Source: Paenibacillus sp. W2I17 (GTDB taxonomy: Bacteria > Bacillota > Bacilli > Paenibacillales > Paenibacillaceae). Taken from it: a DNA stretch of 64,000 bases. Within the stretch, counting starts at the first letter, position 1. Each line of letters starts with the position of its first letter. The position numbers were made by a program, and so were the translations under genes. Below the pieces are notes generated by a model. It had not been told where the DNA came from and searched no databases. It saw nothing but the letters and a program-made list of their open reading frames with translations. The stretch covers positions 4,216,001 to 4,280,000 of the forward strand of contig NZ_JAUSXM010000001.1 of NCBI RefSeq assembly GCF_030815985.1, written 5' to 3'. Below, piece after piece: positions 2,117 through 30,199 of the stretch.

Positions 2117-3805
2117 CTAGGAGACATCTGCTCTTTCATCATCTGTCTGCTTTAACGTTACAGGAAGTTTCCCCGCAAAAGGAATGCGCCCCATCAGCGC
2201 CTGAGCGACGCTATCCATGGCAAGTGGCCGGCTCTCGTAAGCCGCTACATAGACCTCGGCATCCGGAAGCGCCAGCAGATCATAGGGGCTTCGCAATGCC
2301 ACAACAGCCAGTGGTTTACCCAATTGCTGTATCCAACCAATCAGCCTACACTGTGGATCGCCGGAGGGACTTCCCGCATTGTAGGTTCCCACCACAATCT
2401 GCCGAATGTCATCTGCTTCCGCTGCCTGAAGCAGACGTGCGGAACGAATGGCAACTTCCTCGGGCGTGACCGTCAGATCGACAACATCCAGACCATACAT
2501 GGATAAGGCTGAGCCCAAGGTGAACGTCTGAGTCAACTGTTCGTCGGCAATTGTCGTCACGGACGTGGCAACCGTTATGACCAGCGTGCGTTCCGGCTTC
2601 AAAGGCAGCATATTCAACTGATCGCGCACCAGTGTGATACTGTTCTCGCTAATACGGCGGGCAACCTCTTGGTGTAAAGAACTGTTGCGCTCCGACCAAC
2701 TGGATAGAGCAGGAGCATTTGATACTAAAATATTCACTTCATCAACACCACCCGTTTCACTCTCCAACAAACCACGCTTCGCCTTGTACATCAGCAAGCG
2801 AATCACCGACTCATCAATACGTCTCTCGCTAATCCGCCCACTCCTCACAGCTGCTAACAATGCTTCAAATGCCTCTGCCTGAAGCTTAGCCGTATGGCTA
2901 ATTAACACCAGATCTGCCCCGGCCTCTACCGCCATTACGGCTGCATCGACAGTGCCATAATTCACGGCAATAGCATCCATCTCCATGCAATCTGTCACGA
3001 TCATGCCCTGATAACCCAGTTCCTGGCGAAGCAGACCGCTTAATACGGTTTGCGATAGCGTTACGGGCAGACGCTCTGGCTCCAGTGCAGGGAAATAAAT
3101 ATGCGCCGACATCATGGCATCGACACCTTCGGCGATAGCGGCTCGGAATGGAATCAACTCCAGGCGCTCTACCCGTTCACGATCATGAGTGATGATCGGG
3201 AGGTCCAGATGGGAATCGGTATCCGTATCCCCATGCCCCGGGAAATGCTTGGCTGTCGCTGCAATCCCAGCATCCTGTATTCCCGCAATGGTTCTGGCCC
3301 CATATTCTGCAACGGATTGTGGAGATTCGCCGAATGATCGTACACCGATGACCGGATTGGCCGCGTTATTGTTCACATCCAATACCGGAGCAAAGTTCAT
3401 GTTAATGCCCATGGACTTCAGCTCCAACCCACTGATATATGCCGCCTGATACGCATCGTCAATGGAACCGGCAGCGGCAATGGCCATTGGTCCGGGCATC
3501 AAGGTTATCCCTTCGGTAATTCGAGCAACCATGCCGCCCTCCTGATCAATGGATATCCAGAGCGGCACATTACCGCTGCTTTTGGCAATCTGCTGTAGCC
3601 CTGACGATAACTGCTCTACCTGCTCTGGCGACTCAACGTTGCGCGCAAAATAGATCACGCCACCGATGGGATACTTTCGGAGAAAGGGTTCCACATCGCC
3701 AGCAGCTTCGGTGCCATGAAAACCACAAAGCAGCATTTGCCCGATTTTCTCACGCAAGGTCATCTGTTTCAGCTTCGACTGGTATAACTCTTTTGGCCCA
3801 CTCAT
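2117..3805 (-). CDS. nagZ: Beta-N-acetylglucosaminidase NagZ (glycoside hydrolase family 3), predicted cytoplasmic
   Basis: Removes non-reducing-end GlcNAc from peptidoglycan fragments. The 562-residue protein has the GH3 TIM barrel at about 10-350. It carries the NagZ signature KHFPGHGDTDTDSH (186-199), whose Asp-X-His dyad supplies the acid/base, and the nucleophile Asp272 in IVTDCMEMDAI. A C-terminal GH3 sandwich domain follows (about 390-555), as in Bacillus NagZ. Unlike the exported B. subtilis enzyme, the N-terminus (MSGPKELYQSKLKQMTLREK) has no signal peptide or lipobox, pointing to action in the cytosol on imported saccharides. The ATG follows GGAGGTAAGAA. Last gene of the ABC transporter/namZ operon, 31 bases after namZ. 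Confidence 0.95.
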   Translation of the reverse strand: MSGPKELYQSKLKQMTLREKIGQMLLCGFHGTEAAGDVEPFLRKYPIGGVIYFARNVESPEQVEQLSSGLQQIAKSSGNVPLWISIDQEGGMVARITEGITLMPGPMAIAAAGSIDDAYQAAYISGLELKSMGINMNFAPVLDVNNNAANPVIGVRSFGESPQSVAEYGARTIAGIQDAGIAATAKHFPGHGDTDTDSHLDLPIITHDRERVERLELIPFRAAIAEGVDAMMSAHIYFPALEPERLPVTLSQTVLSGLLRQELGYQGMIVTDCMEMDAIAVNYGTVDAAVMAVEAGADLVLISHTAKLQAEAFEALLAAVRSGRISERRIDESVIRLLMYKAKRGLLESETGGVDEVNILVSNAPALSSWSERNSSLHQEVARRISENSITLVRDQLNMLPLKPERTLVITVATSVTTIADEQLTQTFTLGSALSMYGLDVVDLTVTPEEVAIRSARLLQAAEADDIRQIVVGTYNAGSPSGDPQCRLIGWIQQLGKPLAVVALRSPYDLLALPDAEVYVAAYESRPLAMDSVAQALMGRIPFAGKLPVTLKQTDDERADVS

Positions 3806-3836
3806 TTCTTACCTCCCTCCGATAACAAACATCCGT

Positions 3837-5036
3837 TCATTCATATAACAAAAACGGCTTTCGCCGCTCCTTCCATTCCGCTGCCTGTACATTCCACGCT
3901 TCGATTAAACGAACGAAGCCCGCGCGGTCATGAATGGTTTCCCTGACTACCTTCCCCCCTGCCAGCAGGTCGATAAAGTACCTTGAACCTGGCTCTGGCG
4001 GCTCCAGCCAGCAGAATTGCTCCGGATAAAGTGAAACCAGTTCATGCAAAAGCACTAACCCTGTCTCTACCGCCCGAAATTTCCTGCTGTCCGTTACAAA
4101 AATCCTTACACCACCACACAGTTCACCTGCATGTTTGGAGAATGTTGGCGACATGTACACTGGATGCACATGCACACCTTCCAGCTTGTATTCCCGAAAT
4201 CGTTCCGCCAAACGCTCACCCTCAACCCAGGGTGCCCCAATCCACTCGAATGGGCGGGTCGTGCCCCTGCCCTCCGATACATTAGTGCCTTCGAACAGGC
4301 ACGTACCCGCATATACCCGCACACTGTCCAGCGTGGGCATATTGGGAGAGGGTAACATCCAGGGAAGACCACAATCCGCAAACTCCATGGAGCGCTGCCA
4401 TCCTTCCATGGTAACCACGTCCAATTCGCAAGGTACATCCATCTCGCTGTTGACCATCAGGGCGAGTTCACCTATCGTCAATCCGGTACGTACAGGTACA
4501 CGCCAAGCGCCAACGAGTGATTCATACCCCGCGTTCAGCACACCGCCTTCCACAACGTTTCCACCCAGCGGATTGGGACGGTCCAGAATCAACATGCGTT
4601 TGCCTGCTCCAGCACAGGCATCCATCATATGGAACAAGGTTGAGGCATACGTGTAATAACGGATGCCCACATCCTGAATGTCGAACAGCACCGTATCCAC
4701 TCCAGCCAGCATTGCAGGCGTAGGTTTCTTGTAATCTCCATACAGGCTGAACACCGGAATGTCCAGACGTGGATGAAGCATGTCTCCGAATCTGACACCC
4801 GCCTGAAGCTCTCCACACAGTCCGTGCTCACAGGCATAAAGCGCTGTAAGCATGGCATTAGCCAGTCTGGCGCACACATCTATTGTCGATACAAAGTCCG
4901 GTGTAATACCAGTCGGGTTTGTAATTAGACCGATTCGATTACCCGTTATCCATGGATGCGATAACCCTCTGGACAGAAGGTCAACTCCCGTTTTTACAGC
5001 CGGGATCTGCTCGGTCCCATTCAACTGACCCATCAC
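3837..5036 (-). CDS. namZ: Exo-beta-N-acetylmuramidase NamZ (DUF1343, GH171), predicted cytoplasmic
   Basis: Belongs to the DUF1343/YbbC family, whose B. subtilis member removes MurNAc from the non-reducing end of glycan fragments and works with NagZ. Conserved family blocks are visible: ITNPTG near residue 40, FSLYGDYKKPTPAML, VLFDIQDVGIRYYTY, LDRPNPLGG and EGTNVSEGRGTTRPFEW. Length (about 399 residues) is normal. No signal peptide is seen, unlike the exported Bacillus homologue. The start is either GTG 5036 or ATG 5033. Both overlap the stop of the upstream membrane-protein gene (TGATG), so translation is coupled. Alternative: DUF1343 proteins of other specificity, but adjacency to nagZ, murQ and anmK argues for NamZ. 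Confidence 0.92.
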   Translation of the reverse strand: MMGQLNGTEQIPAVKTGVDLLSRGLSHPWITGNRIGLITNPTGITPDFVSTIDVCARLANAMLTALYACEHGLCGELQAGVRFGDMLHPRLDIPVFSLYGDYKKPTPAMLAGVDTVLFDIQDVGIRYYTYASTLFHMMDACAGAGKRMLILDRPNPLGGNVVEGGVLNAGYESLVGAWRVPVRTGLTIGELALMVNSEMDVPCELDVVTMEGWQRSMEFADCGLPWMLPSPNMPTLDSVRVYAGTCLFEGTNVSEGRGTTRPFEWIGAPWVEGERLAERFREYKLEGVHVHPVYMSPTFSKHAGELCGGVRIFVTDSRKFRAVETGLVLLHELVSLYPEQFCWLEPPEPGSRYFIDLLAGGKVVRETIHDRAGFVRLIEAWNVQAAEWKERRKPFLLYE

Positions 5037-5743
5037 ACATTCCCCTGGCTGATCCAGCCTGTATGCTGGTGATCATTACCGCCTGTTACGACAGGCTCTT
5101 CTTCAGGCTCCAGCACATTAAGAGCAACCTTATGCTGATAGATGGCAAACATACCTCCAAACAGCGCTCCGAAACCAACGACAGTCAGCATTAGCAAAGC
5201 AGTTAAGCACATGGCCTGAAAACAAGCGCCCATCGTGTACCCCGGGTGACGGAAGAACAGCTTTACACTTTCCCCCATCGCCTGAACGATCCCCATGTTT
5301 TTTTGTAAAACAAGCTGCCAAGTATAGAACTGTGACATCAGCGCCATGAGAACAAAGAAAGTCTGGAATACACCCACTGCTGTACCTGTAATTCCACCCT
5401 GTCCACCGTAATACCACCAGGTTGACAATAGAATGAAGCCAAGCACCGCGAAAAGCACACCCACCGATCCTCCCGGGACTATTCCCTTCAACGTTCCGAT
5501 CCAAATATCCTTAAGTCCATTGCGCCGTTCCTTACGTTCCAATCTGTGATGCACGGCATAACAAACACCGAACAGGATGGGCATATATATCAAGGCCAGT
5601 AGCAGCACCGCGATCGGCAGCGGAGCAAACATCAGAATGGGAACCAATACGATGGAGCTAACGACACTGTACAAGGCCACCGGAATAATATCCCGATAGA
5701 TTTCCGCGCCCGACTTAATCAATACTTCACTCAGCTTACGCAT
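5033..5743 (-). CDS. Polytopic membrane protein, DUF624/YesL-like, in the muropeptide ABC operon
   Basis: About 236 residues with roughly five to six hydrophobic helices (for example SVVSSIVLVPILMF, IAVLLLALIYMPILFGV, VGVLFAVLGFILLSTWWYY). A motif LFFRHPGYTMGACF recalls DUF624 (YesL-like) proteins, which often accompany sugar ABC transporters and have no settled function. I chose the ATG at 5743 (MRKLSEVL) because AAAGGGG precedes it at good spacing. An upstream in-frame ATG at 5785 has only a weak site. The stop overlaps the namZ start. Family assignment is tentative. Confidence 0.7.
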   Translation of the reverse strand: MRKLSEVLIKSGAEIYRDIIPVALYSVVSSIVLVPILMFAPLPIAVLLLALIYMPILFGVCYAVHHRLERKERRNGLKDIWIGTLKGIVPGGSVGVLFAVLGFILLSTWWYYGGQGGITGTAVGVFQTFFVLMALMSQFYTWQLVLQKNMGIVQAMGESVKLFFRHPGYTMGACFQAMCLTALLMLTVVGFGALFGGMFAIYQHKVALNVLEPEEEPVVTGGNDHQHTGWISQGNV

Positions 5744-5791
5744 TTTTATTTTCCCCTTTCTCACCGTTCCTTCTTCACCAGGCATCGTCTC

Positions 5792-6901
5792 TTACTCACG
5801 TCCAATCGCAAGCTCCGTCTCTGGATCGAAAAAGTGCGCCTTACGCAGGTCCAGCACAAAATTTTTCTCCATACCTACATAAGCATGTGTTTCCGGATGA
5901 ACCTTGGCCGTAACAGTACGGGCACCGGAATGGAAATACACCAAATTCTCGGAGCCCAGATGTTCTACAACCTGAACTCGCGCCTGCAGCATATGGTCTG
6001 TCGGGATATTCGGAGCGACATCATCACCAAAAATATGCTCTGGACGCAGACCCATAATCACCGGCTTGCCTTGATGACTCTGAAGACGAGCGAGTACACC
6101 CTCTGACAAGGTGAATGATGCACCGTCCACGACAACCTGCGTGCCTTCAATCCGGGCATCAATGAAGTTCATCGCCGGGGAACCGATAAATCCGGCAACA
6201 AACATATTCCGCGGACTCGCATACAGTTCCTTCGGTGAAGCCACCTGCTGAATATCTCCATGATTCATGACCACGATGCGTTCCCCAAGTGTCATGGCCT
6301 CTACCTGATCATGCGTCACGTACACAATCGTGGCACCGAGACGTTTATGCAGCTCACCCAACTCCACCCGCATCTGTACCCGCAACTTGGCATCCAGATT
6401 GGACAGTGGTTCGTCGAATAAAAACACCTGCGGATCCCGGACGATCGCCCGTCCTACCGCAACACGCTGGCGCTGACCACCAGACAGCTCGCGTGGTTTG
6501 CGCTCCAGCATCGCTTCCAGTCCCAGAATGGAGGCCGCATTCTGCACCTGTTCATCAATATAGGACTTTGGCTTTTTCAGATTTTTCAGGCCAAAGGAAA
6601 GATTCTCACGGATGGTCATATGCGGATAGAGTGCATAATCCTGAAACACCATCGCGATATCGCGATCCTTCGGATGCAGATCGTTAACAAGCCGGTCACC
6701 GATCACAATATCACCGCTTGTTTGCTTTTCAAGTCCGGCAATCATCCGAAGTGACGTTGTCTTGCCACAGCCCGAAGGACCCACAAACACTACGAATTCC
6801 TTATCTTCTATAACAAAGTCCGAGCCGGCCACAGCCGTGAACGTTCCTTTATGATCGTCTTTGAATTCTTTGCGCACTTGGCGAAACTCCACGCGTGCCA
6901 T
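5792..6901 (-). CDS. Sugar ABC transporter ATP-binding protein (MsmX/UgpC type)
   Basis: 369-residue ATPase that powers carbohydrate import. It has Walker A GPSGCGKTT (about 42-50), the Q-loop MVFQDYALYPHMT, the signature LSGGQRQR, Walker B VFLFDEPLSNLDAKLR and H-loop VTHDQVEAMT. A C-terminal TOBE/regulatory domain follows (about 240-365), as in MsmX, MalK and UgpC. It sits inside the operon between the permease genes and the DUF624-like gene. Members of this family often serve several transporters, so this ATPase may not be exclusive to the muropeptide system. The ATG is preceded by AAGGGGGATC. Confidence 0.95.
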   Translation of the reverse strand: MARVEFRQVRKEFKDDHKGTFTAVAGSDFVIEDKEFVVFVGPSGCGKTTSLRMIAGLEKQTSGDIVIGDRLVNDLHPKDRDIAMVFQDYALYPHMTIRENLSFGLKNLKKPKSYIDEQVQNAASILGLEAMLERKPRELSGGQRQRVAVGRAIVRDPQVFLFDEPLSNLDAKLRVQMRVELGELHKRLGATIVYVTHDQVEAMTLGERIVVMNHGDIQQVASPKELYASPRNMFVAGFIGSPAMNFIDARIEGTQVVVDGASFTLSEGVLARLQSHQGKPVIMGLRPEHIFGDDVAPNIPTDHMLQARVQVVEHLGSENLVYFHSGARTVTAKVHPETHAYVGMEKNFVLDLRKAHFFDPETELAIGRE

Positions 6902-6944
6902 AGGTAGATCCCCCTTTACGTTGTCGCTTGTCCTGAACTAACAG

Positions 6945-7787
6945 CTAACCTTTTACTGCACCTATCGTAATGCCTTGTAGGAAATAACGTTGCAGTGAGA
7001 AAAACAGAATGATCATGGGTAGCGCACCTATTGTAGCCCCGGCCATCATTGCGCCGAAATCCGTTGATTCGGCAAATACGAACGAAGCCAGCCCTACCTG
7101 GATGGTACGCATCTCGTTGGAATTGGTAATCAGAAACGGCCAGAAAAATTCATTCCACGAAGCTACAAACGTGAAAATTGCCAGCACCGCGATTCCCGGC
7201 TTTGCCATCGGCAGAATGACTTTCCAGAAGATACCGAACTCACTGCATGCATCTATACGTGCCGCATGTATCAGCGATGTGGGCAGCGTAGACATAAACT
7301 GTTTCATCAAGAAAATGTTGCCCACACTAACGGCAGCAGGCAGAATAATGGCCGTATACGTATCCCCTAGGTCAAACACGTTGACCATCAGAATGTACAA
7401 GGGAATCAGCGTCACCTGTGCCGGAATCATCATTGTCCCAAGCAAAGTCCAGAATACCGCCTGACTACCCGGAAACTTTAGTTTGGCAAATGCATATCCC
7501 GCCAGGGAGGCGAAGAATACATTTGTTACGGTCAGAATGATCGAGATGAGCAGCGAATTGTATAACCAGCGCCAGGCATCGGTTTTGGCAAAAAAGCGCT
7601 CATATGGTGATAACGACAATTGCTCCGGAATCATCTGTGGTTTAAACGAAGCCGACATCGCACTATCCTGCACCGAACCAACGAGCATCCAATACATCGG
7701 AATGACCGTCACCAGCGCCCAGACCACCAGCAGAATGGATGCAACAACGAGCAGTATCTTTTTCTGTGTTGATTTCATGGATTTCAT
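6945..7787 (-). CDS. Sugar ABC transporter permease (MalG-type)
   Basis: 280-residue inner-membrane permease with six predicted helices, starting with VASILLVVWALVTVIPMYWML. It has the cytoplasmic EAA-type coupling loop ARIDACSEFGIFWKVILPMAKP (about 176-197) that contacts the ATPase. The sequence pattern is that of the second permease (MalG/SugB) of carbohydrate importers. GGGGGTG precedes the start; ATG 7787 and ATG 7778 are both possible. Probable substrate from context: GlcNAc/MurNAc-containing saccharides. Confidence 0.93.
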   Translation of the reverse strand: MKSMKSTQKKILLVVASILLVVWALVTVIPMYWMLVGSVQDSAMSASFKPQMIPEQLSLSPYERFFAKTDAWRWLYNSLLISIILTVTNVFFASLAGYAFAKLKFPGSQAVFWTLLGTMMIPAQVTLIPLYILMVNVFDLGDTYTAIILPAAVSVGNIFLMKQFMSTLPTSLIHAARIDACSEFGIFWKVILPMAKPGIAVLAIFTFVASWNEFFWPFLITNSNEMRTIQVGLASFVFAESTDFGAMMAGATIGALPMIILFFSLQRYFLQGITIGAVKG

Positions 7788-7842
7788 TCACCCCCGGATG
7801 CTTAATGCAACGTGCTCTAATAGTGCGTGTTTTGAAATACCT

Positions 7843-8766
7843 CTAATACTCAATATCGCTGGAGAAATATTTGAACTGAATGACGGAGATGACAATGATG
7901 ATAATCGCCAGTACAAACGACTGAGCCGAAGCCAATCCGAACTCATAGAACTTAAATGCCGTCTCGTAGATCAGATAAGCGATTGTTGTTGTCGCAAAGT
8001 TTGGTCCACCCTGTGTCATCAGATATACCGAGATGAACACCTGGAAGGATGTAATAACACCTGTGACGAGCAGATACAGCGTCGTTGGTTTGAGGAGTGG
8101 CCATGTAATCTTGCTGAACTGGGTCCAGCCGCTGGCATGATCAATATCCGCCGCTTCGTATAGTGATTTCGGAATACCACCCATGGCTGCCAGATACAGA
8201 ATAATGCCCGCTCCGTGCGATCCAAGCCAGTTCATCAGAATGAGGGAAAAGAGTGCCGTTCCCGACTGGCCCAGCCAGATTACTGGGTCAAGGCCGAACA
8301 AGCCGAGAAAACGGTTGAGCAGCCCCGAATCCGTCGGATCAAAGATCGCCAGCCATACAATGGATATGGTCACCCCGGAGGCTACCGCAGGCAGATACAT
8401 GGTAGCTTTGAAAAATGTCTGCCATTTGCTTTTCATTTGATAGATGAAATAGGACAGTACAAATGTAATGAGAATATTGACCGGGACTGTGCCTACGGTG
8501 AAGATGACTGTATTTTTAATCGACTTCCAGAACGTCTCATCCTTCACCAGTCGCTCGTAGTTATCCAATCCAACCCACGTCGAGTTCATAATATTGTATT
8601 TCTGGAAGCTCATCACAAGAGCCGTCAGAACAGGATACAGTGTGAAAATGAGAAACAGCAGGACAGGCGCCAAAATAAACAAATACGCCCACCCGTAGTC
8701 TCGCCAAAACCGGGCAACCCGGGAAGTCCGGGGCACGGACGGTTTTGGCGCAAGGGCGGTCTGCAT
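7843..8766 (-). CDS. Sugar ABC transporter permease (MalF-type)
   Basis: 307-residue permease with six or more helices. It has a proline-rich cytoplasmic N-terminus and the first helix YLFILAPVLLFLIFTLYPVL, typical of the MalF/UgpA family. The EAA loop is YEAADIDHASGWTQFSKITWP (about 205-225). A strong ribosome-binding site (AGGAGAGGAGG) precedes ATG 8766. Together with the next permease it forms the channel of the importer in this operon. Confidence 0.93.
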   Translation of the reverse strand: MQTALAPKPSVPRTSRVARFWRDYGWAYLFILAPVLLFLIFTLYPVLTALVMSFQKYNIMNSTWVGLDNYERLVKDETFWKSIKNTVIFTVGTVPVNILITFVLSYFIYQMKSKWQTFFKATMYLPAVASGVTISIVWLAIFDPTDSGLLNRFLGLFGLDPVIWLGQSGTALFSLILMNWLGSHGAGIILYLAAMGGIPKSLYEAADIDHASGWTQFSKITWPLLKPTTLYLLVTGVITSFQVFISVYLMTQGGPNFATTTIAYLIYETAFKFYEFGLASAQSFVLAIIIIVISVIQFKYFSSDIEY

Positions 8767-8821
8767 GGCGAATCCTCCTCTCCTAATCAGTGTGGTTTTA
8801 CGTTATGTTTGATTGTCCGAG

Positions 8822-10174
8822 TTATTGTCCAAACATCTGCTGGCCCTTGCTCTTGAAGTCTTCTGCGATCTGCTCTGGTGATTTTTCACCCGAAAACAGC
8901 GCCTGAATATTAGGCTTCACAACCTGTTCCTTGAATTGTTTTTGCTGGGAAGCTTTGTCGATATCCAGTTCCAGTACAACCGGCATCGCGATACTCTCTG
9001 CCATGACTTTTGCAGCAGCCAGATTATCCGGCTGACCAAGCTCTTTTCCTTTAAACAGTTCCACTTGGGACTGTCTTACGAATGGAAGCGCAAGTTCATT
9101 GGCCGAGTTCCCTGCTTTGGCACCACTAAGCGCCTCCATCACCAGGAACGTATTTTTGGCATGCTGTTCGCCTTTGTCCTTCTTCTGTTTGAAGGCTACA
9201 TACCCTTCGCCGCCCATCGTTGTGGCCGCAGGTTGATCATCATTATGTGGTACAGGCAACAAGACAAAATCAATCTTCTCTCCTTGCACTTTGCCATCAT
9301 CGATGTCCTTGTTGCGGTTCTGAATCATCACATCATAATAAGGAATCGCTTTGGAGATAATCGCCGTTTCCCCCGCGTAGAACATATCCGTCCGTTTCGC
9401 TGGAGCGAGAGCCGCCGTTTCCTTCGGCATATACCCTTGATCCATCAGGTTTTTGATAAAAGAGAGGGTATCCAGAATGCGACCATCATTCCATTGGAAC
9501 GTGCCGTCTTTATCAAGAACATCGATCATCCCGTTGTTACGAGACAGCATTTCAATGAAGTCAAGCGAGGTTCCGTCGGTAACCAGTGCATATTGCTTGG
9601 TCCCGCCATCCAGCGTTTTGGTCAGCTTGGCAGCAGCATCGTTGAATTCGGACCAGGTCCAGCCATTTTGCTGAATGGACTTCCAATCAATGCCTGCTTC
9701 CTCCAGAGTGCGTTTGTTCCCACCCCAAGCCCATTGGAATTGATACAACGGCAGTCCATACTGTTTCCCCTGAATCTGGCCTAAATCAAGCGTACCCGGC
9801 AGGTAGTCGTCCTTGATCTCAGGTGTCAGGTAGCTGTCCAGCTCAAGTGCCAATCCCGTATTCACATATGTGCCGTCTACACTATGAAAGTAAAGATCCG
9901 GCGGGTTGCCCGCGTTCAGAGCGACATCGAATTTTTTGGGCCCTTCCGCCCAGGAGAGCATTTCCGTCTTCACGGTAATGTTCGGGTGTTCTTTATTGAA
10001 ATCAGAGATTAGATCCTTCAGTTCATCTTCATATGTGCCATGTACAGGATAGGTCCATACCGTTACCGTATCGTCAGCATTTGGGTCATCTGAAGCAGCA
10101 CCCCCGCTATTCCCACAGGCAGTAACCAAGACCATCATCAACAACATCGTCCATACCAGACCCTTCTTTTTCAT
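8822..10174 (-). CDS. Extracellular sugar-binding lipoprotein of the ABC importer
   Basis: First gene of the operon. The product begins MKKKGLVWTMLLMMVLVTAC, a lipoprotein signal peptide whose lipobox (LVTAC) places a lipid-modified Cys at position 20. The mature part is an SBP_bac_1-type (cluster D carbohydrate) binding protein with TVWTYPVHGTYEDELKDL and FYAGETAIISKAIPYY. I chose ATG 10174, behind AAAGGAGATG, over an upstream ATG pair at 10201. The substrate is inferred from the downstream namZ and nagZ: probably a MurNAc/GlcNAc disaccharide or related fragments. The binding protein alone does not prove this. Confidence 0.92.
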   Translation of the reverse strand: MKKKGLVWTMLLMMVLVTACGNSGGAASDDPNADDTVTVWTYPVHGTYEDELKDLISDFNKEHPNITVKTEMLSWAEGPKKFDVALNAGNPPDLYFHSVDGTYVNTGLALELDSYLTPEIKDDYLPGTLDLGQIQGKQYGLPLYQFQWAWGGNKRTLEEAGIDWKSIQQNGWTWSEFNDAAAKLTKTLDGGTKQYALVTDGTSLDFIEMLSRNNGMIDVLDKDGTFQWNDGRILDTLSFIKNLMDQGYMPKETAALAPAKRTDMFYAGETAIISKAIPYYDVMIQNRNKDIDDGKVQGEKIDFVLLPVPHNDDQPAATTMGGEGYVAFKQKKDKGEQHAKNTFLVMEALSGAKAGNSANELALPFVRQSQVELFKGKELGQPDNLAAAKVMAESIAMPVVLELDIDKASQQKQFKEQVVKPNIQALFSGEKSPEQIAEDFKSKGQQMFGQ

Positions 10175-10346
10175 CCCTTCATCTCCTTTGCATGTCATCA
10201 TCCGATTCTTTCATTGCCTACCATGCTACCCCTTTTGTGATCGTTCAGCCTTCAAACGCCATCCACCTATACACGCGGCAGTAAGGAAAAGCACCTCCCC
10301 TGTAGATTGGGCCTGCCAGTCGCAGGCTAAATCTCTTAAATGCAAT

Positions 10347-10373
10347 GTTAACGTCAACTTAATTGACATTAAC
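10347..10373. promoter_or_regulatory. Operator-like inverted repeat between promoter and binding-protein gene
   Basis: GTTAACGTCAA and TTGACATTAAC form an inverted repeat (10 of 11 pairs) around CTTAA. It lies about 30-55 bases inside the predicted transcript of the ABC operon, where a bound repressor could act as a roadblock. Part of it also resembles a catabolite-response element with about two mismatches. Candidate only. Confidence 0.4.
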
Positions 10374-10408
10374 AGTATTAATTCCTTCCAAAATTGTAGA
10401 TTGAATTC

Positions 10409-10437
10409 ATTATATGAGTTGTAAAATAAAAATTCAA
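10409..10437 (-). promoter_or_regulatory. Sigma-A promoter of the muropeptide ABC/namZ/nagZ operon
   Basis: Minus strand: -35 TTGAAT (10432-10437), 17-base spacer, perfect -10 TATAAT (10409-10414). The predicted start near 10402 gives a leader of about 230 bases to the ATG at 10174. Confidence 0.7.
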
Positions 10438-10450
10438 CATTATTTTTTAT

Positions 10451-10492
10451 TATAAAATTTAATTTTACTTTTTCTTTTCATGCAACTATACT
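10451..10492 (+). promoter_or_regulatory. Candidate promoter and MurR half-site before the kinase gene
   Basis: A -10 like TATACT (10487-10492) lies 17 bases after TTTACT (10464-10469). Overlapping its upstream edge, TATAAAATTTAATT (10451-10464) matches 13 of 14 bases of a half-site in the anmK upstream inverted repeat (14856-14869). This suggests one shared regulator. Confidence 0.4.
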
Positions 10493-10530
10493 ATGTAAAA
10501 AGAAAACCCAAGCAAGCGAGGTGAGCCACT

Positions 10531-11493
10531 TTGCGAGTGTATGTAGGCGTAGATGGAGGCGGTACCAACACTGATGCAGCAATCATTTCTGAATCTGGTG
10601 AAATTCTCGCCCGACTCAGCGGCGGTCCCACGAATCCTCACAGCGTATCCACTGAACAGGCCATTTCCGAACTGCAACGAGTGCTGGAACAGCTATTTAA
10701 TCTAATAAGTGATTTATCGACAAATTGTGAGGGTATATGCCTCGGTATGTCAGGTGTAGATACGATCCAAGAACGGCAACTTATAGCCGAAGCAGTAAAT
10801 AACTATATGAAGAGTCTTAATCGACAGGCATCAGAAGGTTGTCAAGTCTGGGTTGTATCCGAAGGAGAGATTGCTCTGATGGCCTCTCTCGGACATACGC
10901 ACGGTGTATTGTGTATCTCTGGAACAGGGTCCATCGTGTACGGATTTACGCTGGAAGGAGAGCGATACCGTGCAGGAGGCTGGGGTCATCTGCTTGGAGA
11001 TGAGGGGAGCGGCTATCGTATTGGGCAGCGTGCACTCCAAGTGGTTATGCAGAGTTATGACGGTGTTCTTCATCCAACCCGCTTAACCCCTCTTCTTCTA
11101 AAGAATCTGAACCTTCGGGATATATCAGAGCTAAAGACGCGGGTGTATCAGACGGATTGGGGCAAAACCGAGACCGCATCCATCGCCCGTTTAGCTATAG
11201 AAGCAGCTGAACTCGGAGATGAGGCCGCCCGGGCACTGATCATCGACGAAGCCTCACAATTGGCGGATACCGCCAAGGCGCTGGTTGCCCGTCATCCCGA
11301 ATTTGTATCCACTCCGGTTGTCCTGTCCGGATCAATGTTTCGATACGCTGCACTTTTCCGAAATACATTTATTCAGAAGTTATCAGGATATTATGGAGAG
11401 TTGGACTTTGTATATCGTGAAGATGCCCCCGCTCCAGCGGTTGGCGCAGCACAACTGGCAAGAAAACGCCGTTCCCTGAATGAATCATTTTAA
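10531..11493 (+). CDS. BadF/BadG-type N-acetylmuramate/N-acetylglucosamine kinase (MurK-like)
   Basis: 320-residue ASKHA-fold sugar kinase. It has the phosphate-1 loop VDGGGTNTDAAI (6-17), ISGTGSIVYGF (about 129-139) and GGWGHLLGDEGSGYRIG (about 149-165) of the BcrA/BadF/BadG ATPase family. Characterised relatives phosphorylate GlcNAc or, in Clostridium MurK, both MurNAc and GlcNAc at C6. Here it would convert free sugars released by NamZ and NagZ inside the cell to MurNAc-6-P and GlcNAc-6-P for MurQ. A PTS importer would have delivered them already phosphorylated. TTG start at 10531 behind GAGGTGAG; murQ begins 22 bases downstream. Specificity is inferred from context. Confidence 0.85.
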   Translation: MRVYVGVDGGGTNTDAAIISESGEILARLSGGPTNPHSVSTEQAISELQRVLEQLFNLISDLSTNCEGICLGMSGVDTIQERQLIAEAVNNYMKSLNRQASEGCQVWVVSEGEIALMASLGHTHGVLCISGTGSIVYGFTLEGERYRAGGWGHLLGDEGSGYRIGQRALQVVMQSYDGVLHPTRLTPLLLKNLNLRDISELKTRVYQTDWGKTETASIARLAIEAAELGDEAARALIIDEASQLADTAKALVARHPEFVSTPVVLSGSMFRYAALFRNTFIQKLSGYYGELDFVYREDAPAPAVGAAQLARKRRSLNESF

Positions 11494-11515
11494 AAGAGAG
11501 AAGGAGGCCATACGA

Positions 11516-12421
11516 ATGAATCACATGCTGAATTCACTAATAACAGAACAACCCAATCCACTAACGGATCATATAGATGAATTGCCTTCGGCAGAAATTA
11601 TGGAGCTAATTAATAAGGAAGATCAACGCATTGCGGAGCTCATTCAGCTCCTGATTCCGGTCATTGCTCAGGCTGCGGATCGGATCTTGGAGGCATTTCA
11701 GTCTGGCGGCAGGCTTTTTTATGTAGGCGCAGGTACCAGTGGAAGATTAGGAATACTTGACGCCTCGGAATGCCCGCCTACCTACGGAACCCCGCCCTCC
11801 ATGGTGCAGGGTATTATTGCAGGGGGATTCCGGGCAGTAAAGGACCCGGTTGAAGGTGCTGAAGATAGTGAGGAGTTGGGAGCTGCGGACCTTGATGAAC
11901 ATGGCTTAGACAAAAACGATGTTGTGGTTGGCATTGCAGCCAGTGGACGAACGCCGTATGTGCTGGGTGCGATGAGACATGCCAAGGAGATTGGGGCTAC
12001 GGTGATCAGCCTGAGTAATAATGCAGGCACGCCGATGACCCTGTTGGCTGATGTGAGCATTGAGGCTGTTGTCGGCCCAGAGGTTGTCATGGGTTCAACA
12101 CGTATGAAGGCAGGCAGCGCCCAGAAAATGATTCTGAACATGCTCACGACTACCGCCATGATTCGTCTGGGCAAGGTTTACCGTAATTTCATGGTTGATC
12201 TGAACCCTTCGAACGAGAAGCTTGTCCATCGGGCCAAACGCATGATACATCTGGCAACCGGAGCGAATGAAGCCGATATTGAAGAGGCTTTTACCGGTGC
12301 AGACGGTCATGTAAAAACGGCAATCGTCATGCTGATGGCAGGCGTGGACGCAACGGAAGCCCAGCACAGGCTTCATCTGGCTGACGGATTTGTCCGTAGC
12401 GCCATTGCGGGGCCTTCCTGA
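11516..12421 (+). CDS. murQ: N-acetylmuramic acid 6-phosphate etherase MurQ
   Basis: Cleaves the lactyl ether of MurNAc-6-P to GlcNAc-6-P and D-lactate, the key step of muropeptide recycling. The 301-residue SIS-domain protein shows the signature FYVGAGTSGRLGILDASECPPTYG region (about 67-90). VVGIAASGRTPYVLGAM and GSTRMKAGSAQKMILNM are also present. I chose ATG 11516 because AAGGAGG (11501-11507) is 8 bases upstream; a longer reading would overlap the kinase gene. It forms a two-gene unit with the kinase and ends in a terminator. Confidence 0.97.
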   Translation: MNHMLNSLITEQPNPLTDHIDELPSAEIMELINKEDQRIAELIQLLIPVIAQAADRILEAFQSGGRLFYVGAGTSGRLGILDASECPPTYGTPPSMVQGIIAGGFRAVKDPVEGAEDSEELGAADLDEHGLDKNDVVVGIAASGRTPYVLGAMRHAKEIGATVISLSNNAGTPMTLLADVSIEAVVGPEVVMGSTRMKAGSAQKMILNMLTTTAMIRLGKVYRNFMVDLNPSNEKLVHRAKRMIHLATGANEADIEEAFTGADGHVKTAIVMLMAGVDATEAQHRLHLADGFVRSAIAGPS

Positions 12422-12456
12422 GCCGTACAGGGGTATCATTAGAGGTGGTAAGAGAG

Positions 12457-12488
12457 GAGCCCAACATTAGTCTGGGCTCTTTTTTTTA
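12457..12488 (+). terminator. Terminator after murQ
   Basis: Stem GAGCCCA/TGGGCTC with a 9-base loop followed by eight or more T residues, 35 bases after the murQ stop. Confidence 0.9.
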
Positions 12489-12568
12489 TTTTTTTATTGT
12501 AAAAGCGGATATAATCCGTCAAAAAATCCCCTCCTGCATAAACAGAAAGGGATTCATATGGTTTTACT

Positions 12569-13417
12569 TCACTTGTGCTCCAGAATAGCCTGTCGGCTCT
12601 TCTCCAAATACTCCACCGACTGGTTGTAATCCCGACTGGCAATCGCTAGATACAAAATATCGATCACGTTCAGCTGTGCAATCCGTGACGAAGTTGCTCC
12701 GCTCCGAATATCGCTTTCGGTGGAAGTAATCATCAGGGGTACATCCGCCATACTACTGAGTGTATTACTGCCCCACTTGGTAATGCTGATTGTCGCTGCA
12801 CCGCCATCATGAGCATGCTTGAGACAGGAGATTACGTTCGAAGTCTCCCCTGAATACGAGATACATACCACCGCATCATCTTCACGAAGCGTCGTTGCGG
12901 ACGAAATCTGCATATGCGGATCGGCGAACGAAAAGCTTGTGCGATTGATTCGCATGAACTTGTAATGTGCATCCAGCGCAATCAGGTTGGAGGCCCCTAC
13001 TCCATAGAAAAAGATCCGGTTCGCCTGATGAAGCACGTCCACGGCTTTTTCTACCAGACGTGGGTCCAGAATATGAACCGTATCCTTCACCGACTGAATA
13101 TTGTTTGTGGACACATGTTGAATAATGCTCTCCATGGAGTCCTGGGGACGAATCTCTGTATATTGATATGGCTCACTCGTCTGCAAATCTCCGGCAATCT
13201 TCAGCTTCAGCTCCTGAAAACCCGTTACACCCAGTGATTTGCAGAGACGGATAATGGCAGCTGGGCTGCCTCCACTCCGTTCAGACAACTGGGCCACCGA
13301 GGATTGAACAGTTTCTTGCGGGTGATCGAGAATATAAGCTCCGATCTTCCGTTCGGACGGGGTCAAGTCATCCATTAATGCACGTAAACGTACAAGTCCA
13401 CCTTTCATGCCTTCCAT
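12569..13417 (-). CDS. murR: RpiR-family transcriptional regulator MurR
   Basis: 282-residue regulator. An N-terminal RpiR helix-turn-helix (about 5-78, LTPSERKIGAYILDHPQ, SVAQLSERSGGSPAAIIRLCKSLG) is followed by a sugar-phosphate-binding SIS domain (about 115-250, FFYGVGASNLIALDAHYK, VCISYSGETSNVI). Known MurR proteins sense MurNAc-6-P and repress murQ and nearby genes. The ATG at 13417 has AAAGGAGGAGCGA directly upstream; an ATG at 13441 does not. It lies 116 bases after anmK on the same strand and is convergent with murQ. A weak TTAGAC/TAAAAT pair in the gap may give it its own promoter. Confidence 0.9.
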   Translation of the reverse strand: MEGMKGGLVRLRALMDDLTPSERKIGAYILDHPQETVQSSVAQLSERSGGSPAAIIRLCKSLGVTGFQELKLKIAGDLQTSEPYQYTEIRPQDSMESIIQHVSTNNIQSVKDTVHILDPRLVEKAVDVLHQANRIFFYGVGASNLIALDAHYKFMRINRTSFSFADPHMQISSATTLREDDAVVCISYSGETSNVISCLKHAHDGGAATISITKWGSNTLSSMADVPLMITSTESDIRSGATSSRIAQLNVIDILYLAIASRDYNQSVEYLEKSRQAILEHK

Positions 13418-13533
13418 TCGCTCCTCCTTTCCGTACTTCATTCATGTACAAGCATTTTATCTTATAATTCCACTCGCGTCTAATCGAATTCCTCGCCCTT
13501 CCATAACTGAACTCCAATTAAAGTCAGGCCTCA

Positions 13534-14763
13534 CTAGAGTGTGAGATCGCCTGAGATTACGGCGTGTTTCGCGCCGGTTACGGCCGGGAGTGTATTAGTT
13601 CTTCCCATAAGTGCCTCATGGCCAAGTAAAGCAAATCCAATGGCTTCCCGAGCATCATCGGGTATACCATAATCTGTTGTTCGTTCCAAACGGATATCCT
13701 CAGGTAGTCTCTGACGGATCATCTCCATTAACGTGGCATTGGAAGTGCCACCACCGCACGCGAGCATGGCCGATATTTGCACCTTGGTCAGAATAAAATC
13801 CTTCACTCCACGCACGATGGTCTCCGCGGTCAGACAGGTGGCAGTAGCCAGCGTGTCTTCCAGCGTTAAGGAACGTGATGCGGCCATCTCCATCAGTCTC
13901 ACTGCATACGCTGTTCCATATACTTCTCGCCCGGTACTTTTCGGTGGAAGTCTTTTGAAATACTCATCCTCCAAACACAGGTCTACCAGACCCTGATCGA
14001 CCTTCCCCTGTGCGGCAATACTTCCATTCGGATCATAATGCTGCCGCCCATCCGTTGCCTGCCGCACAATGGCGTCCATCACCATATTCCCTGGTCCCGT
14101 ATCAAATGCCGAAATACCTTCGCTAGAAGACTCGGAGGGAAGCACCGTCACATTTCCAATGCCGCCGATATTCTGCACCAGCCGTCCTTCCGTCGGGCTG
14201 CGGAACATCAGAGCATCCGCATAAGGCGTAAGCGGGGCACCTTCCCCACCAGCCGCCATATCCCTTGCCCGCAGGTTGCCAATCACTGGCAGTCCAGTCC
14301 GTTCTCGAACAACAGCACATTCACCGATCTGCAATGTCGATACCACATCAATACTTGCTCCCGTTGGCCCTGGAAATGCAGATGCTACAGGAGCATGCCA
14401 TACTGTCTGTCCATGCATGCTGATCACATCCACCTGCTGCGTTGAAATACCGGCAGACTGCATCAGTTCCGTAACACTATGCGCATACCACTCCGATACA
14501 CCAAAATGCGCGGCCGTCAGCTCGTCGACACGCGCCGTCTCCGGTGAACATAACCGGATCAGTACGTCTCTCAATCCATTCGAATACGGCACACAGACGA
14601 AATCAACCAGCTCGATCTGCTGTAATGCCCCGCTCATATCGGTTTGAATACGCACCAATGCCGCGTCAGTTCCATCAAGTGACGTTCCTGACATTAGTCC
14701 GATGACCAGATGCTCCTGCTTCAAACGATACTTCTCCCACATCGGATAGCTGCCTGTATCCAT
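13534..14763 (-). CDS. anmK: Anhydro-N-acetylmuramic acid kinase AnmK
   Basis: Hydrolyses the 1,6-anhydro ring of anhMurNAc and phosphorylates it to MurNAc-6-P, feeding MurQ. The 409-residue protein has the family N-terminal motif GLMSGTSLDGTDAALV (about 22-37). SMHGQTVWH, the GGIGNVT block, FDTGPGNMVMDAIV and ACGGGTSNATLM near the C-terminus are also visible. Start ATG 14763 is behind GGAGGTTGGAAG. AnmK is typical of Gram-negative recycling, where lytic transglycosylases make anhydro sugars, and is less usual in a Gram-positive. It is separated from the ABC operon but lies beside murR. Confidence 0.95.
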   Translation of the reverse strand: MDTGSYPMWEKYRLKQEHLVIGLMSGTSLDGTDAALVRIQTDMSGALQQIELVDFVCVPYSNGLRDVLIRLCSPETARVDELTAAHFGVSEWYAHSVTELMQSAGISTQQVDVISMHGQTVWHAPVASAFPGPTGASIDVVSTLQIGECAVVRERTGLPVIGNLRARDMAAGGEGAPLTPYADALMFRSPTEGRLVQNIGGIGNVTVLPSESSSEGISAFDTGPGNMVMDAIVRQATDGRQHYDPNGSIAAQGKVDQGLVDLCLEDEYFKRLPPKSTGREVYGTAYAVRLMEMAASRSLTLEDTLATATCLTAETIVRGVKDFILTKVQISAMLACGGGTSNATLMEMIRQRLPEDIRLERTTDYGIPDDAREAIGFALLGHEALMGRTNTLPAVTGAKHAVISGDLTL

Positions 14764-14830
14764 CCACTTCCAACCTCCTGCAAGACCCGATGAACACGTC
14801 ATCCTGCCATAATTTCACCCAGTATATGAT

Positions 14831-15045: not shown

Positions 15046-16458
15046 ATGAAGAAAACCATTTTACTACTGTTTTTGAGTCTGTTCTTACTCTTTTTGCTCC
15101 CTAATCAGGGAAATGCCGCTGCAAGCACGTCGAAAATCTTTATGGATGGAGAGGAATTAGTCCTCCCAAGTGATGTACAGGTGACGATCATCAATAAAAA
15201 CGTGATGATCCCGATTCGTGTCGTTGCCGAAAATTTGAAATTCAAAGTCGATTGGAACCAACAAGCACGCACTGTAAAAATTCAGCAAGATCAACAGACG
15301 ATTTCCCTAACCGTGGATCAAAAGCAAGCCATGGTTACTGACAAACAAGTCACTTTGAACACAGCCCCGCAAATTTTGAACAAAACGCTGGTGGTGCCCA
15401 TTCGATTTGTCAGTGAACAAATGGGGCTTAAGGTAAGATGGAACAATCAAGACAAGATCGTATACTTAACAAACACCAGTAAGGGACCTGCTATCGACCC
15501 AGGCAACAGTTCTGGAAAAGGGGATTCAACGTCTAACGCCCAGGTTACCGATATCCAATTTGCCAATAATCAGCTCGTGTTATCCACGGATGGGGCCGTT
15601 CAGCCGGTAGTAACGACCCTCAAGTACCCTGATCGTTTGGTTGTGGACTTGCCCGGAGCCACATTTGGTGATATCTCCCAACCGCTGGATCAAGGATTCA
15701 ATGGCAAGCTGGATGTGAGCGGTTATCCCAATGTGACGGAAGTGAGATATTCGCTGTTCAAACGAGATCCGGCGCAAGTTCGCATTGTCGTAGAATTGAA
15801 TAATGTCAAGGATGTCCAGTACATCCAGAATGTGATTGCCGATAAACTGATTATTGATCTGAATGTAGCGGGAGACAATGTCACACCTGCTCCAGTCACT
15901 CCAGTAGGCGATTCAGGACGCAAGGTCGTGGTCATCGATCCAGGACACGGTGGCAGTGATCCAGGGACGATCAGCATCACGAATAAACCCGAAAAGGAAT
16001 ACAATCTGGCATTGGCTCACAAAGTACAAGCCCTGCTGCTCAATGAACCCAATATCGAATTGGTGATGACTCGTGAAGGTGATACCTATCCGACCCGCCC
16101 TGAGCGTGTTCAACTCGCCAATCAATTAAATGCAGATGTATTTGTATCTATCCATGGCAATAGTGTGAAGTCCGCCCCCCAAGCGACAGGTACGGAGACA
16201 TATTATTATCAACGCAGTAACAGCAAGGAATTAGCCAATATCATTCATCAACGTTTGGTGAAAGCCATGGGTCTCAGAGATCGTGGTGTGAAAAATGGCA
16301 ACTTGGAAGTAATCCGAGACACGACCATGCCTGCAGTACTTTTGGAAGTGGGATTCTTGAGTAATGTACTCGATGAAGAACTGATGTCGTCCGAAGTTGT
16401 TCAGATGAAAGCCGCTCAAGCGATAGCCGATGGAATCAAGGAGTATTTGGGCCTATAA
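15046..16458 (+). CDS. Exported N-acetylmuramoyl-L-alanine amidase (CuAO-like + AMIN + Amidase_3)
   Basis: 470-residue wall hydrolase that cuts the MurNAc-L-alanine bond. A signal peptide (1-25, ending GNAAA) precedes a copper-amine-oxidase-like N domain (about 30-142, VMIPIRVVAE, LVVPIRFVSE). An AMIN domain (about 165-272) targets peptidoglycan, and a zinc Amidase_3 domain (about 294-468) follows. The zinc ligands are visible as H301 (VIDPGHGG), E316 (EKEYNL) and H370 (VSIHGN), with catalytic E434 (LLEVGFLSN). ATG 15046 follows GAGGTG. It is divergent from anmK and may supply fragments to the rescue pathway, but it could equally serve ordinary wall turnover. Confidence 0.95.
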   Translation: MKKTILLLFLSLFLLFLLPNQGNAAASTSKIFMDGEELVLPSDVQVTIINKNVMIPIRVVAENLKFKVDWNQQARTVKIQQDQQTISLTVDQKQAMVTDKQVTLNTAPQILNKTLVVPIRFVSEQMGLKVRWNNQDKIVYLTNTSKGPAIDPGNSSGKGDSTSNAQVTDIQFANNQLVLSTDGAVQPVVTTLKYPDRLVVDLPGATFGDISQPLDQGFNGKLDVSGYPNVTEVRYSLFKRDPAQVRIVVELNNVKDVQYIQNVIADKLIIDLNVAGDNVTPAPVTPVGDSGRKVVVIDPGHGGSDPGTISITNKPEKEYNLALAHKVQALLLNEPNIELVMTREGDTYPTRPERVQLANQLNADVFVSIHGNSVKSAPQATGTETYYYQRSNSKELANIIHQRLVKAMGLRDRGVKNGNLEVIRDTTMPAVLLEVGFLSNVLDEELMSSEVVQMKAAQAIADGIKEYLGL

Positions 16459-29472: not shown

Positions 29473-29543
29473 AGCGGGTGATGGGAATCGAACCCACGCT
29501 ATTAGCTTGGAAGGCTAAAGTTCTACCATTGAACTACACCCGC
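29473..29543 (-). tRNA. tRNA-Gly (anticodon TCC)
   Basis: Cloverleaf with acceptor GCGGGTG/CACCCGC, anticodon loop CTTCCAA and T-loop GGTTCGATTCC. CCA is not encoded. Last gene of the tRNA array. Confidence 0.95.
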
Positions 29544-29554
29544 AAATAAAAAAA

Positions 29555-29628
29555 TCGGGATGACACGATTTGAACATGCGACCCCCTGGTCCCAAACCAG
29601 GTGCTCTACCAAGCTGAGCTACATCCCG
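29555..29628 (-). tRNA. tRNA-Pro (anticodon TGG)
   Basis: Acceptor CGGGATG/CATCCCG, anticodon loop TTTGGGA, T-loop TTCAAATC. CCA not encoded. Confidence 0.95.
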
Positions 29629-29644
29629 ATATATATGAAAATAA

Positions 29645-29721
29645 TGGCGCGCCCTGAGAGATTCGAACTCCCGGCCTTTTGATTCGTAGTCAAACGCTCT
29701 ATCCAGCTGAGCTAAGGGCGC
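29645..29721 (-). tRNA. tRNA-Arg (anticodon ACG)
   Basis: Acceptor GCGCCCT/AGGGCGC, anticodon loop CTACGAA; discriminator G and CCA encoded. The A34 is normally deaminated to inosine to read CGN codons. Confidence 0.95.
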
Positions 29722-29727
29722 AAATAT

Positions 29728-29802
29728 TGGAGCGGAAGACGGGAATCGAACCCGCGACCCTCGCCTTGGCAAGGCGATGCTCTACCGCTGAGCCACTTCC
29801 GC
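29728..29802 (-). tRNA. tRNA-Gly (anticodon GCC)
   Basis: Acceptor GCGGAAG/CTTCCGC, anticodon loop TTGCCAA, CCA encoded. Second glycine tRNA of the array. Confidence 0.95.
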
Positions 29803-29810
29803 AAAACATA

Positions 29811-29898
<88 letters not shown>

Positions 29899-29907
29899 AA
29901 AATATAA

Positions 29908-29983
29908 TGGTGAGTCATGAAGGGCTCGAACCTTCGACACCCTGATTAAAAGTCAGGTGCTCTACCAACTGAGCTAATGACTC
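29908..29983 (-). tRNA. tRNA-Lys (anticodon TTT)
   Basis: Acceptor GAGTCAT/ATGACTC, anticodon loop CTTTTAA, CCA encoded. Confidence 0.95.
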
Positions 29984-29992
29984 GTAATGAAA

Positions 29993-30067: not shown

Positions 30068-30078
30068 TTAAAAAATCA

Positions 30079-30155: not shown

Positions 30156-30199
30156 ATAGAGTAAGCCATTCATCCACTAAGAGAATCTTAGTATTAACA

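Follow-up and report, generated by a model that had tools for sequence, protein, structure and literature searches.

As far as the available portions of the published accounts go, the NagZ and AmiE enzymes of the Bacillus subtilis rescue operon murQ-murR-murP-amiE-nagZ-namZ (ybbI-ybbC) act outside the cell (PMC5061867), and the mupG-murQ-murP-murR system of Staphylococcus aureus imports an intact disaccharide of N-acetylmuramic acid (MurNAc) and N-acetylglucosamine (GlcNAc), MurNAc-GlcNAc, which is split in the cytosol (PMC6262408). Free MurNAc enters B. subtilis through the phosphotransferase system (PTS) protein MurP, and in S. aureus the PTS yields a phosphorylated sugar for the 6-phospho-muramidase MupG. 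The MurK kinase of Clostridium acetobutylicum and the MurK/MurQ pair of Tannerella forsythia represent a route in which a kinase makes MurNAc 6-phosphate (MurNAc-6-P) for the etherase MurQ. Wall fragments are taken up through an ATP-binding cassette (ABC) importer by Agrobacterium YejBEF-YepA, which operates with cytosolic NagZ and AmpD (PMC9790009), and a review states that Gram-positives take up wall fragments mainly through ABC transporters, for example DppBCDF-YkfD, and that their NagZ may be external or cytoplasmic (PMC13204101). The present analysis concerns a cluster in Paenibacillus sp. W2I17 that joins nagZ and namZ to a sugar-type ABC importer and to genes for MurNAc metabolism. It lies in a window of 64,000 nucleotides, bases 4216001-4280000 of a genome that consists of one contig of 7,008,369 bases, and all positions below are those of the window. 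The strain is placed near Paenibacillus xylanexedens on the basis of 96% identity between its NamZ and the one encoded by P. xylanexedens DSM 21292. The operon probably mediates ABC import of peptide-free di- or short oligosaccharides of MurNAc and GlcNAc and their breakdown in the cytosol, with no MurNAc phosphotransferase involved.

The operon reads on the − strand from 10201 to 2117, its genes overlapping by 4 bp at most and lying no more than 55 bp apart. It begins with the solute-binding lipoprotein gene sbp (8822-10201; PF01547, 3.7e-27; lipobox VTAC), followed by the UgpA/MalF-like permease 1 gene perm1 (7843-8766; PF00528, 1.1e-08, and NF007852 at 3e-37, under its cut-off), the MalG/UgpE-like permease 2 gene perm2 (6945-7787; PF00528, 2.3e-18), and a UgpC/MalK-type ATPase gene (5792-6901; NF008653, 470.6 bits against a cut-off of 432). 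The next gene, memP (5033-5785), encodes an orphan multi-helix membrane protein of 250 amino acids and shares 4 bp with the frame of NamZ, a GH171 exo-beta-N-acetylmuramidase of 399 amino acids (3837-5036; PF07075, 2.9e-76, and PF20732, 1.2e-52), and the last encodes a NagZ-type GH3 beta-N-acetylglucosaminidase of 562 amino acids (2117-3805; PF00933, 3.7e-94); both enzymes are predicted to be cytosolic. Diverging from the operon on the + strand over 10531-12421 are the overlapping frames of a BadF-type, MurK-like MurNAc/GlcNAc kinase (10531-11493; PF01869, 1.6e-34) and MurQ (11480-12421; TIGR00274, 378.9 bits against a cut-off of 302). Beyond MurQ, both on the − strand, follow a MurR/RpiR-family regulator with HTH_6 and SIS domains (12569-13441; PF01418, 4.4e-20, and PF01380, 3.4e-24) and the anhydro-MurNAc kinase AnmK (13534-14802; PF03702, 1.8e-95, 320.6 bits). 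The original prediction, made from the letters of this DNA, had placed nagZ, namZ, an ABC importer and a BadF-type kinase beside MurQ at this location, and the domain matches confirm that these genes are present and intact. Its right edge, 14763, is an internal methionine of the AnmK frame rather than the end of that frame, and its argument was incomplete in leaving out AnmK, the dedicated ATPase, the orphan membrane protein and a palindrome.

The cluster and the B. subtilis operon have the NagZ, NamZ, MurQ and MurR families and a common metabolic end point in common. Instead of PTS entry of free MurNAc, W2I17 would use ABC-type uptake and phosphorylation by a kinase, with AnmK as an addition, and instead of exported NagZ and AmiE it has NagZ and NamZ without signal peptides; the W2I17 cluster was found to contain no AmiE orthologue. 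Import of a whole disaccharide followed by cytosolic cleavage is a feature that the proposed route shares with S. aureus, but an unphosphorylated disaccharide would need NamZ and a kinase. The C. acetobutylicum and T. forsythia systems likewise have a kinase that makes MurNAc-6-P for MurQ, although the kinases compared outside the Paenibacillaceae branch to which that of W2I17 belongs have a catalytic Asp whereas this branch has Glu. Agrobacterium resembles the proposal in ABC uptake and cytosolic NagZ, but its importer is of the peptide type and handles anhydromuropeptides, whereas that of W2I17 is of the sugar type and no AmpD or AmiE is found in the cluster; the available text on YejBEF-YepA makes no mention of NamZ (PMC9790009). 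The Dpp route is a peptide transporter with NagZ/NamZ hydrolysis outside, and the available part of the review mentions no sugar ABC importer beside NamZ (PMC13204101); because it states that uptake is mainly of the ABC type, ABC uptake as a general idea has already been published. The NagB1/NagB2 system of Paenibacillus FPU-7 is like W2I17 in its lipoprotein binders, sugar-type permeases and cytosolic GH3 enzyme, but its substrate is chitin, and the available text mentions no NamZ, MurQ, MurK or AnmK (PMC8233162). Precedents exist for kinase plus MurQ, for the import of muropeptides through an ABC system, and for ABC uptake of chitobiose followed by GH3 cleavage in the cytosol. What looks new is the combination, which qualifies the earlier claim of a different architecture; no description of a sugar ABC importer linked to NamZ was found in the open-licence papers searched.

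The two hydrolases carry the signatures of their families. NagZ matches PF00933 at 316 bits and NF003740 at 222.3 bits, over the cut-off of 207, contains a KHFPGHGDT..DSH segment that we take to be the catalytic His/Asp segment of NagZ, and shows no departure at the 71 columns with at least 97% conservation among 70 aligned NagZ sequences. NamZ matches both the NamZ_N and NamZ_C domains (PF07075 at 255.8 bits and PF20732 at 179.1 bits; cut-offs 26.9 and 25), is the sole PF07075 match in the W2I17 genome, and shows no departure at the 41 equally conserved columns of 141 aligned NamZ sequences, W2I17 included. By its sequence, NamZ is predicted to release MurNAc from the non-reducing end. NagZ and NamZ are both exo-enzymes of the non-reducing end and would alternate at one end, which corrects the earlier idea that they trim from two alternating ends.

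Export was scored with a simple hydropathy rule, not SignalP, which calls a signal peptide when an 11-residue stretch without D, E, K or R and with a mean hydropathy of at least 2.0 follows a positive charge, and which was applied over all possible starts. Control proteins were separated by this rule, which picked out 51 of 52 solute-binding proteins and all 32 Amidase_3 proteins but none of 51 MurQ and 42 MurK proteins. Neither NagZ nor NamZ of W2I17 has a signal peptide by the hydropathy rule or a hydrophobic stretch at the N-terminus, and extension upstream in frame adds no signal peptide to either, as stops come soon; the earlier statement that none is visible is upheld with these starts included. 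Across the genus, the rule likewise finds no signal peptide in 41 NamZ and 41 NagZ proteins.

NamZ is encoded in 42 of 75 Paenibacillus genomes, and neighborhoods of 18-20 kb were compared for 40 of the 41 NamZ-positive genomes besides W2I17 (G054 was left out). All 40 contain nagZ, namZ, memP, the ATPase gene and both permease genes, and most contain the binding protein (38), murQ, the kinase and anmK (37 each; 36 for anmK with a stricter filter) and murR (35). The order nagZ-namZ-memP-atp-perm2-perm1 is kept on one strand with gaps of less than 400 bp in 38 of the 40 regions, so that the enzymes share an operon with the importer, as had been predicted, and the order of genes from nagZ to perm1 is not due to chance. 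In the two exceptions, L060 and L064, about 6 kb is inserted between namZ and memP, and no binding-protein gene was found within the fetched stretch. Between the two genes lies a frame of about 1,965 codons whose start resembles that of an exported protein (L060:3793-9687, +; L064:10469-16360, −).

The arrangement extends beyond the genus. NamZ is found in 126 of 245 Paenibacillaceae genomes and in 15 of 19 genera, and 40 regions were compared, taken from 39 of the 105 genomes of other genera that encode NamZ and covering 14 genera; as these regions were selected for NamZ, the constancy of NamZ is itself no evidence. Genes similar to perm1 and perm2 lie within 10.5 kb of NamZ in all 40, and no murP was found near NamZ in any of them. 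The regions also contain the kinase (38/40), murR (38/40), murQ (37/40), anmK (27/40) and nagZ (15/40). Identity to the W2I17 permeases divides them into three classes, with at least 65% in 9 regions, 45-65% in 19 and less than 45% in 12. As the enzyme core is constant while the importer varies, an importer for an unrelated sugar is hard to explain. None of the 15 NagZ proteins reaches the signal-peptide score of 2.0, and all 40 NamZ proteins were counted by hand as lacking a signal peptide, since none is seen at the expected starts; one (L232) scores 2.05 from a start upstream of the expected one, and two others reach 1.92 (L207) and 1.83 (L228). An AmiE/YfeW-like gene is present in eight regions (L214, L221, L223-L226, L230 and L231), and neither of the two proteins scored (L214 and L223) carries a signal peptide, a hint that fragments with peptides attached are a cargo of some importers.

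The membrane protein memP is present in all 40 genus regions and in 9 of the 40 regions from other genera, all nine in the permease class with at least 65% identity (type A), to which it is restricted. It has an invariant WWYYG segment among its homologues, no Pfam or NCBIfam match at 1e-3, and an AlphaFold2 model that is too poor for a structure search, with a predicted local distance difference test (pLDDT) value of 59.7. Assignment to DUF624/YesL was considered and rejected, as Pfam assigned no consistent family to 23 homologues and the one DUF624 match in the W2I17 genome is at another place.

The route would dispense with MurP, and none was detected in W2I17. The genome encodes 19 proteins with a PF00367 enzyme IIB (EIIB) domain, none of which scores like the MurP controls. 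The MurP model NF007152 gives no match at 1e-70 or better among these proteins, whereas E. coli MurP scores 944 bits and four MurPs from murP-namZ clusters score 291-334. In BLAST comparison with E. coli MurP, the best W2I17 protein reaches 161 bits versus 236-278 for six cluster-linked MurPs; with the MurP of locus L104 the margin is narrower, as the best W2I17 protein has 218 bits whereas E. coli MurP reaches 253 and the other five cluster-linked MurPs 372-694. No murP was found near the W2I17 cluster. The absence asserted in the original prediction is supported for this genome and does not extend to the family, in which a scan of the best six candidates per genome gave MurP-like proteins of 307-371 bits in at least 33 of 245 genomes and no match at its threshold in W2I17. 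The cut-off of the MurP model is exceeded in none of the 245 genomes and by one of three matching controls (E. coli, B. subtilis and L. lactis); because four cluster-linked MurPs score 291-334, the 33 genomes probably do have MurP. MurP-like proteins occur in 11 of 126 genomes with NamZ versus 22 of 119 without it (Fisher p 0.038, kinship ignored), and in one genome of the latter kind (L247) the gene lies beside murQ and murR. Paenibacillaceae therefore seem to use two alternative routes, ABC and PTS.

Outside the family, the predicted location of the enzymes appears to vary with the neighboring transporter. A class survey found NamZ in 109 of 299 genomes, and a phylum sample of 348 genomes (Bacillota by inference, two from the own genus) gave NamZ in 70 genomes and 88 places, 86 of them outside the genus. 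The 60 regions fetched cover 62 of these 86 places, which were counted as ABC-linked when a perm1- or perm2-like match lay within 7 kb of NamZ, which gave 6 with MurP, 14 with ABC permeases and 42 with neither; the Bacillus set namZ-nagZ-amiE-murP-murR-murQ was recovered in three loci (L104, L106 and L109). Signal peptides are found in 6 of 6 NamZ and 5 of 6 NagZ proteins linked to MurP (the sixth scores 1.88), in 4 of 14 NamZ and 0 of 5 NagZ proteins linked to ABC permeases (one scores 1.76), and in 29 of 42 NamZ and 1 of 4 NagZ proteins with neither. Taken together, the survey adds weight to the association of ABC transport with cytosolic enzymes. A NamZ frame of about 490-550 codons that also contains an Amidase_3-like stretch was observed in 21 of the 60 regions (L112, L117, L119, L124 and 17 others) and possibly encodes a bifunctional wall hydrolase.

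In the route proposed for W2I17, the lipoprotein would capture MurNAc/GlcNAc saccharides outside the cell, probably MurNAc-GlcNAc, GlcNAc-MurNAc and their 1,6-anhydro forms, and the two permeases together with the operon-encoded ATPase would carry them inward unphosphorylated. Cytosolic NamZ would then remove non-reducing MurNAc and NagZ non-reducing GlcNAc. The BadF kinase would convert MurNAc to MurNAc-6-P, and perhaps also produce GlcNAc-6-phosphate (GlcNAc-6-P), and MurQ would convert MurNAc-6-P to GlcNAc-6-P for NagA, which is over its model cut-off at two places in the W2I17 genome. MurQ and AnmK show no departures at 57 and 68 columns, respectively, that are at least 97% conserved (85 aligned MurQ and 55 aligned AnmK sequences). 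As AnmK is present, the island could also convert 1,6-anhydro-MurNAc to MurNAc-6-P, which by the gene's family assignment broadens its predicted substrate range.

Control of the two transcription units would probably be exerted at a palindrome in the sbp-murK gap. This 29-bp element (10346-10374), TGTTAACGTCAACTTAATTGACATTAACA, is predicted from its sequence to be an operator; its pattern has one exact site in the 7.0-Mb genome and none in 100 shuffles of the 64-kb window. At least 23 of its 29 positions are retained in 28 of 33 sbp-murK gaps of the genus, and among the remaining gaps L062 retains 20 positions and L063, L066, L074 and L078 fewer than 20; in other cluster layouts, none of 17 gaps reaches 20 positions. 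The element lies downstream of a sigma-A-like −35/−10 pair that reads into sbp (TTGAAT-17-TATAAT, 10409-10437, −) and matches 10 of 12 consensus positions, although shuffles contain at least as many sites of this kind as the region does. The MurR/RpiR regulator shows no departures at columns at least 97% conserved and falls under the NCBIfam cut-offs of all regulators listed. As a guess, it is the natural candidate for binding the palindrome, where a repressor between the divergent promoters would couple the importer with the kinase and etherase.

Several findings weigh against this route, and the first of these concern its substrate, to which the gene neighborhood and the fold class of the binding protein alone point. 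The AlphaFold2 model of the binding lipoprotein has a mean pLDDT of 88.3, and among its top 50 Foldseek matches all titles that specify a ligand refer to a di- or oligosaccharide or to acarbose, including cello-, chitin-, manno- and beta-1,2-gluco-oligosaccharides, maltose, trehalose and sucrose. The modeled fold supports the binding of a di- or oligosaccharide and does not point to MurNAc specifically, being about equally near to binders of cello- and chito-oligosaccharides as to anything else. The best solved relative of NagZ is 6k5j (491.5 bits), which we take to be PsNagA of Paenibacillus FPU-7, a GH3 chitobiase. As far as the available account goes, PsNagA is a cytosolic chitobiase and the same strain has two chitin-oligosaccharide-binding lipoproteins (PMC8233162), so that the nearest solved relative of the cluster NagZ is probably a cytosolic enzyme for another sugar. 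The PsNagA system is at once the best precedent for the plan of the cluster and, if NagZ is considered by itself, the strongest rival. In such a case, the importer would carry another oligosaccharide, for example chitobiose, NagZ would be a PsNagA-like cytosolic chitobiase, and the MurNAc enzymes would be mere neighbors. This is unlikely, since NamZ, MurQ and AnmK would all be superfluous for chitobiose, and nagZ is present in only 15 of the 40 NamZ-selected family clusters whereas murQ, murK and murR are present in 37, 38 and 38; the conserved order and the shared divergent promoter region also argue for a single function.

A second set of findings concerns where the saccharides are trimmed. 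The W2I17 genome encodes 13 GH3 proteins, and the eight examined include two exported relatives of NagZ, with which trimming outside the cell is possible. One of these (L002) has a signal peptide and, by eye, an SLH-like N-terminus, is 39% identical to Bacillus-type NagZ and is nearer to it than the cluster NagZ is, and the other (L004) is a lipoprotein; a third GH3 protein (L001) is a cytosolic paralogue with 46% identity to the cluster NagZ. Next to AnmK, a secreted Amidase_3 with AMIN and copper-amine-oxidase-N domains (15046-16458, +) could be a source of peptide-free glycan outside. Exported GH3 enzymes and amidases might then do the trimming, with the ABC importer carrying free MurNAc or anhydro-MurNAc, MurK and AnmK phosphorylating it, and NagZ and NamZ finishing leftovers inside. 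This arrangement has little probability, as the only NamZ of the genome lacks a signal peptide, so that no free MurNAc would be made by NamZ from MurNAc-GlcNAc outside, and the binding protein resembles oligosaccharide binders. That NagZ and NamZ work outside after lysis or non-classical export, with the ABC genes serving something else, is scarcely credible, for although the hydropathy rule is simple and sequence cannot rule out non-classical export, the rule separated its controls and 41 of 41 NagZ and NamZ proteins of the genus lack a signal peptide that MurP-linked relatives keep. The earlier interpretation is partly supported, its main line being right; it was too broad in its claim of complete cytosolic breakdown, which is predicted for the cluster enzymes and has to allow for the two exported GH3 relatives elsewhere in the genome, and it would be too broad if the lack of MurP were extended to the family.

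Import with cytosolic cleavage by NamZ and NagZ is also faced with exceptions outside the family. Among ABC-linked NamZ proteins, those of L101, L102 and L103 and one fusion in L107 are exported, and in L113 and L115 the ABC permeases lie on the strand opposite to NamZ. The six MurP-linked NamZ proteins form two lineages on the NamZ tree, and with so few a phylogenetically paired test of signal peptide against transporter type is powerless.

The remaining point against the route is that the W2I17 kinase lacks the catalytic Asp and has Glu111 at that position. The kinase matches PF01869 at 120 bits and its best solved relative, the MurNAc/GlcNAc kinase 8zo3, at 131 bits, and near the catalytic base the two align free of gaps, as VVSEGEIAL in W2I17 and VVNDAEIAL in 8zo3. 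The corresponding D95 of T. forsythia MurK is described as strictly conserved in the available text (PMC10465942), and because of the replacement the W2I17 protein is named MurK-like. An alignment of 83 rows, one of them a Protein Data Bank chain, contains Glu in 45 rows, all from Paenibacillaceae, and Asp in 38. On a quick tree of 58 rows with long branches, the residue changes once, with an SH-like approximate likelihood ratio test (SH-aLRT) support of 95. As Glu is retained in kinases merely 42-43% identical to that of W2I17, the alignment suggests that the residue is under selection, and some kinase activity would be expected to accompany it.

A broader possibility is more tentative, namely that the family has a third Gram-positive route for wall sugars, in which unphosphorylated (and anhydro) saccharides of MurNAc and GlcNAc are taken in whole by ABC importers of at least three divergent types, apparently swapped around a fixed NamZ-MurK-MurQ-MurR core, and in which one branch of the kinase replaced Asp by Glu once and kept it, perhaps for a changed substrate such as the intact disaccharide. 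For the recovery of MurNAc by Gram-positives without MurP, the proposed route, if true, would name the missing transporter of a large bacterial family, and it would explain the lack of an export signal in some NamZ proteins. The binding protein could then serve as a sensor for MurNAc disaccharides. The Glu-for-Asp kinase offers a natural experiment on an active site said to be strictly conserved.

Other features were observed around the cluster and among NamZ homologues. A secreted PF00144 serine hydrolase with a copper-amine-oxidase-N domain (548-1948, +) is convergent with nagZ and is kept beside it in 30 of the 40 genus regions. It has a signal peptide, but it was considered as AmiE and rejected, with 24% identity over 245 amino acids to the AmiE of L104, whereas the comparison set of L104, L106, L109 and E. 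coli YfeW has mutual identities of 52-62%. Plasmids of Halorussus and Haladaptatus encode NamZ homologues with about 40-44% identity to that of W2I17, and to our knowledge haloarchaea have no peptidoglycan. Elsewhere in the window, 17 tRNA genes are clustered on one strand (29473-31071, −).

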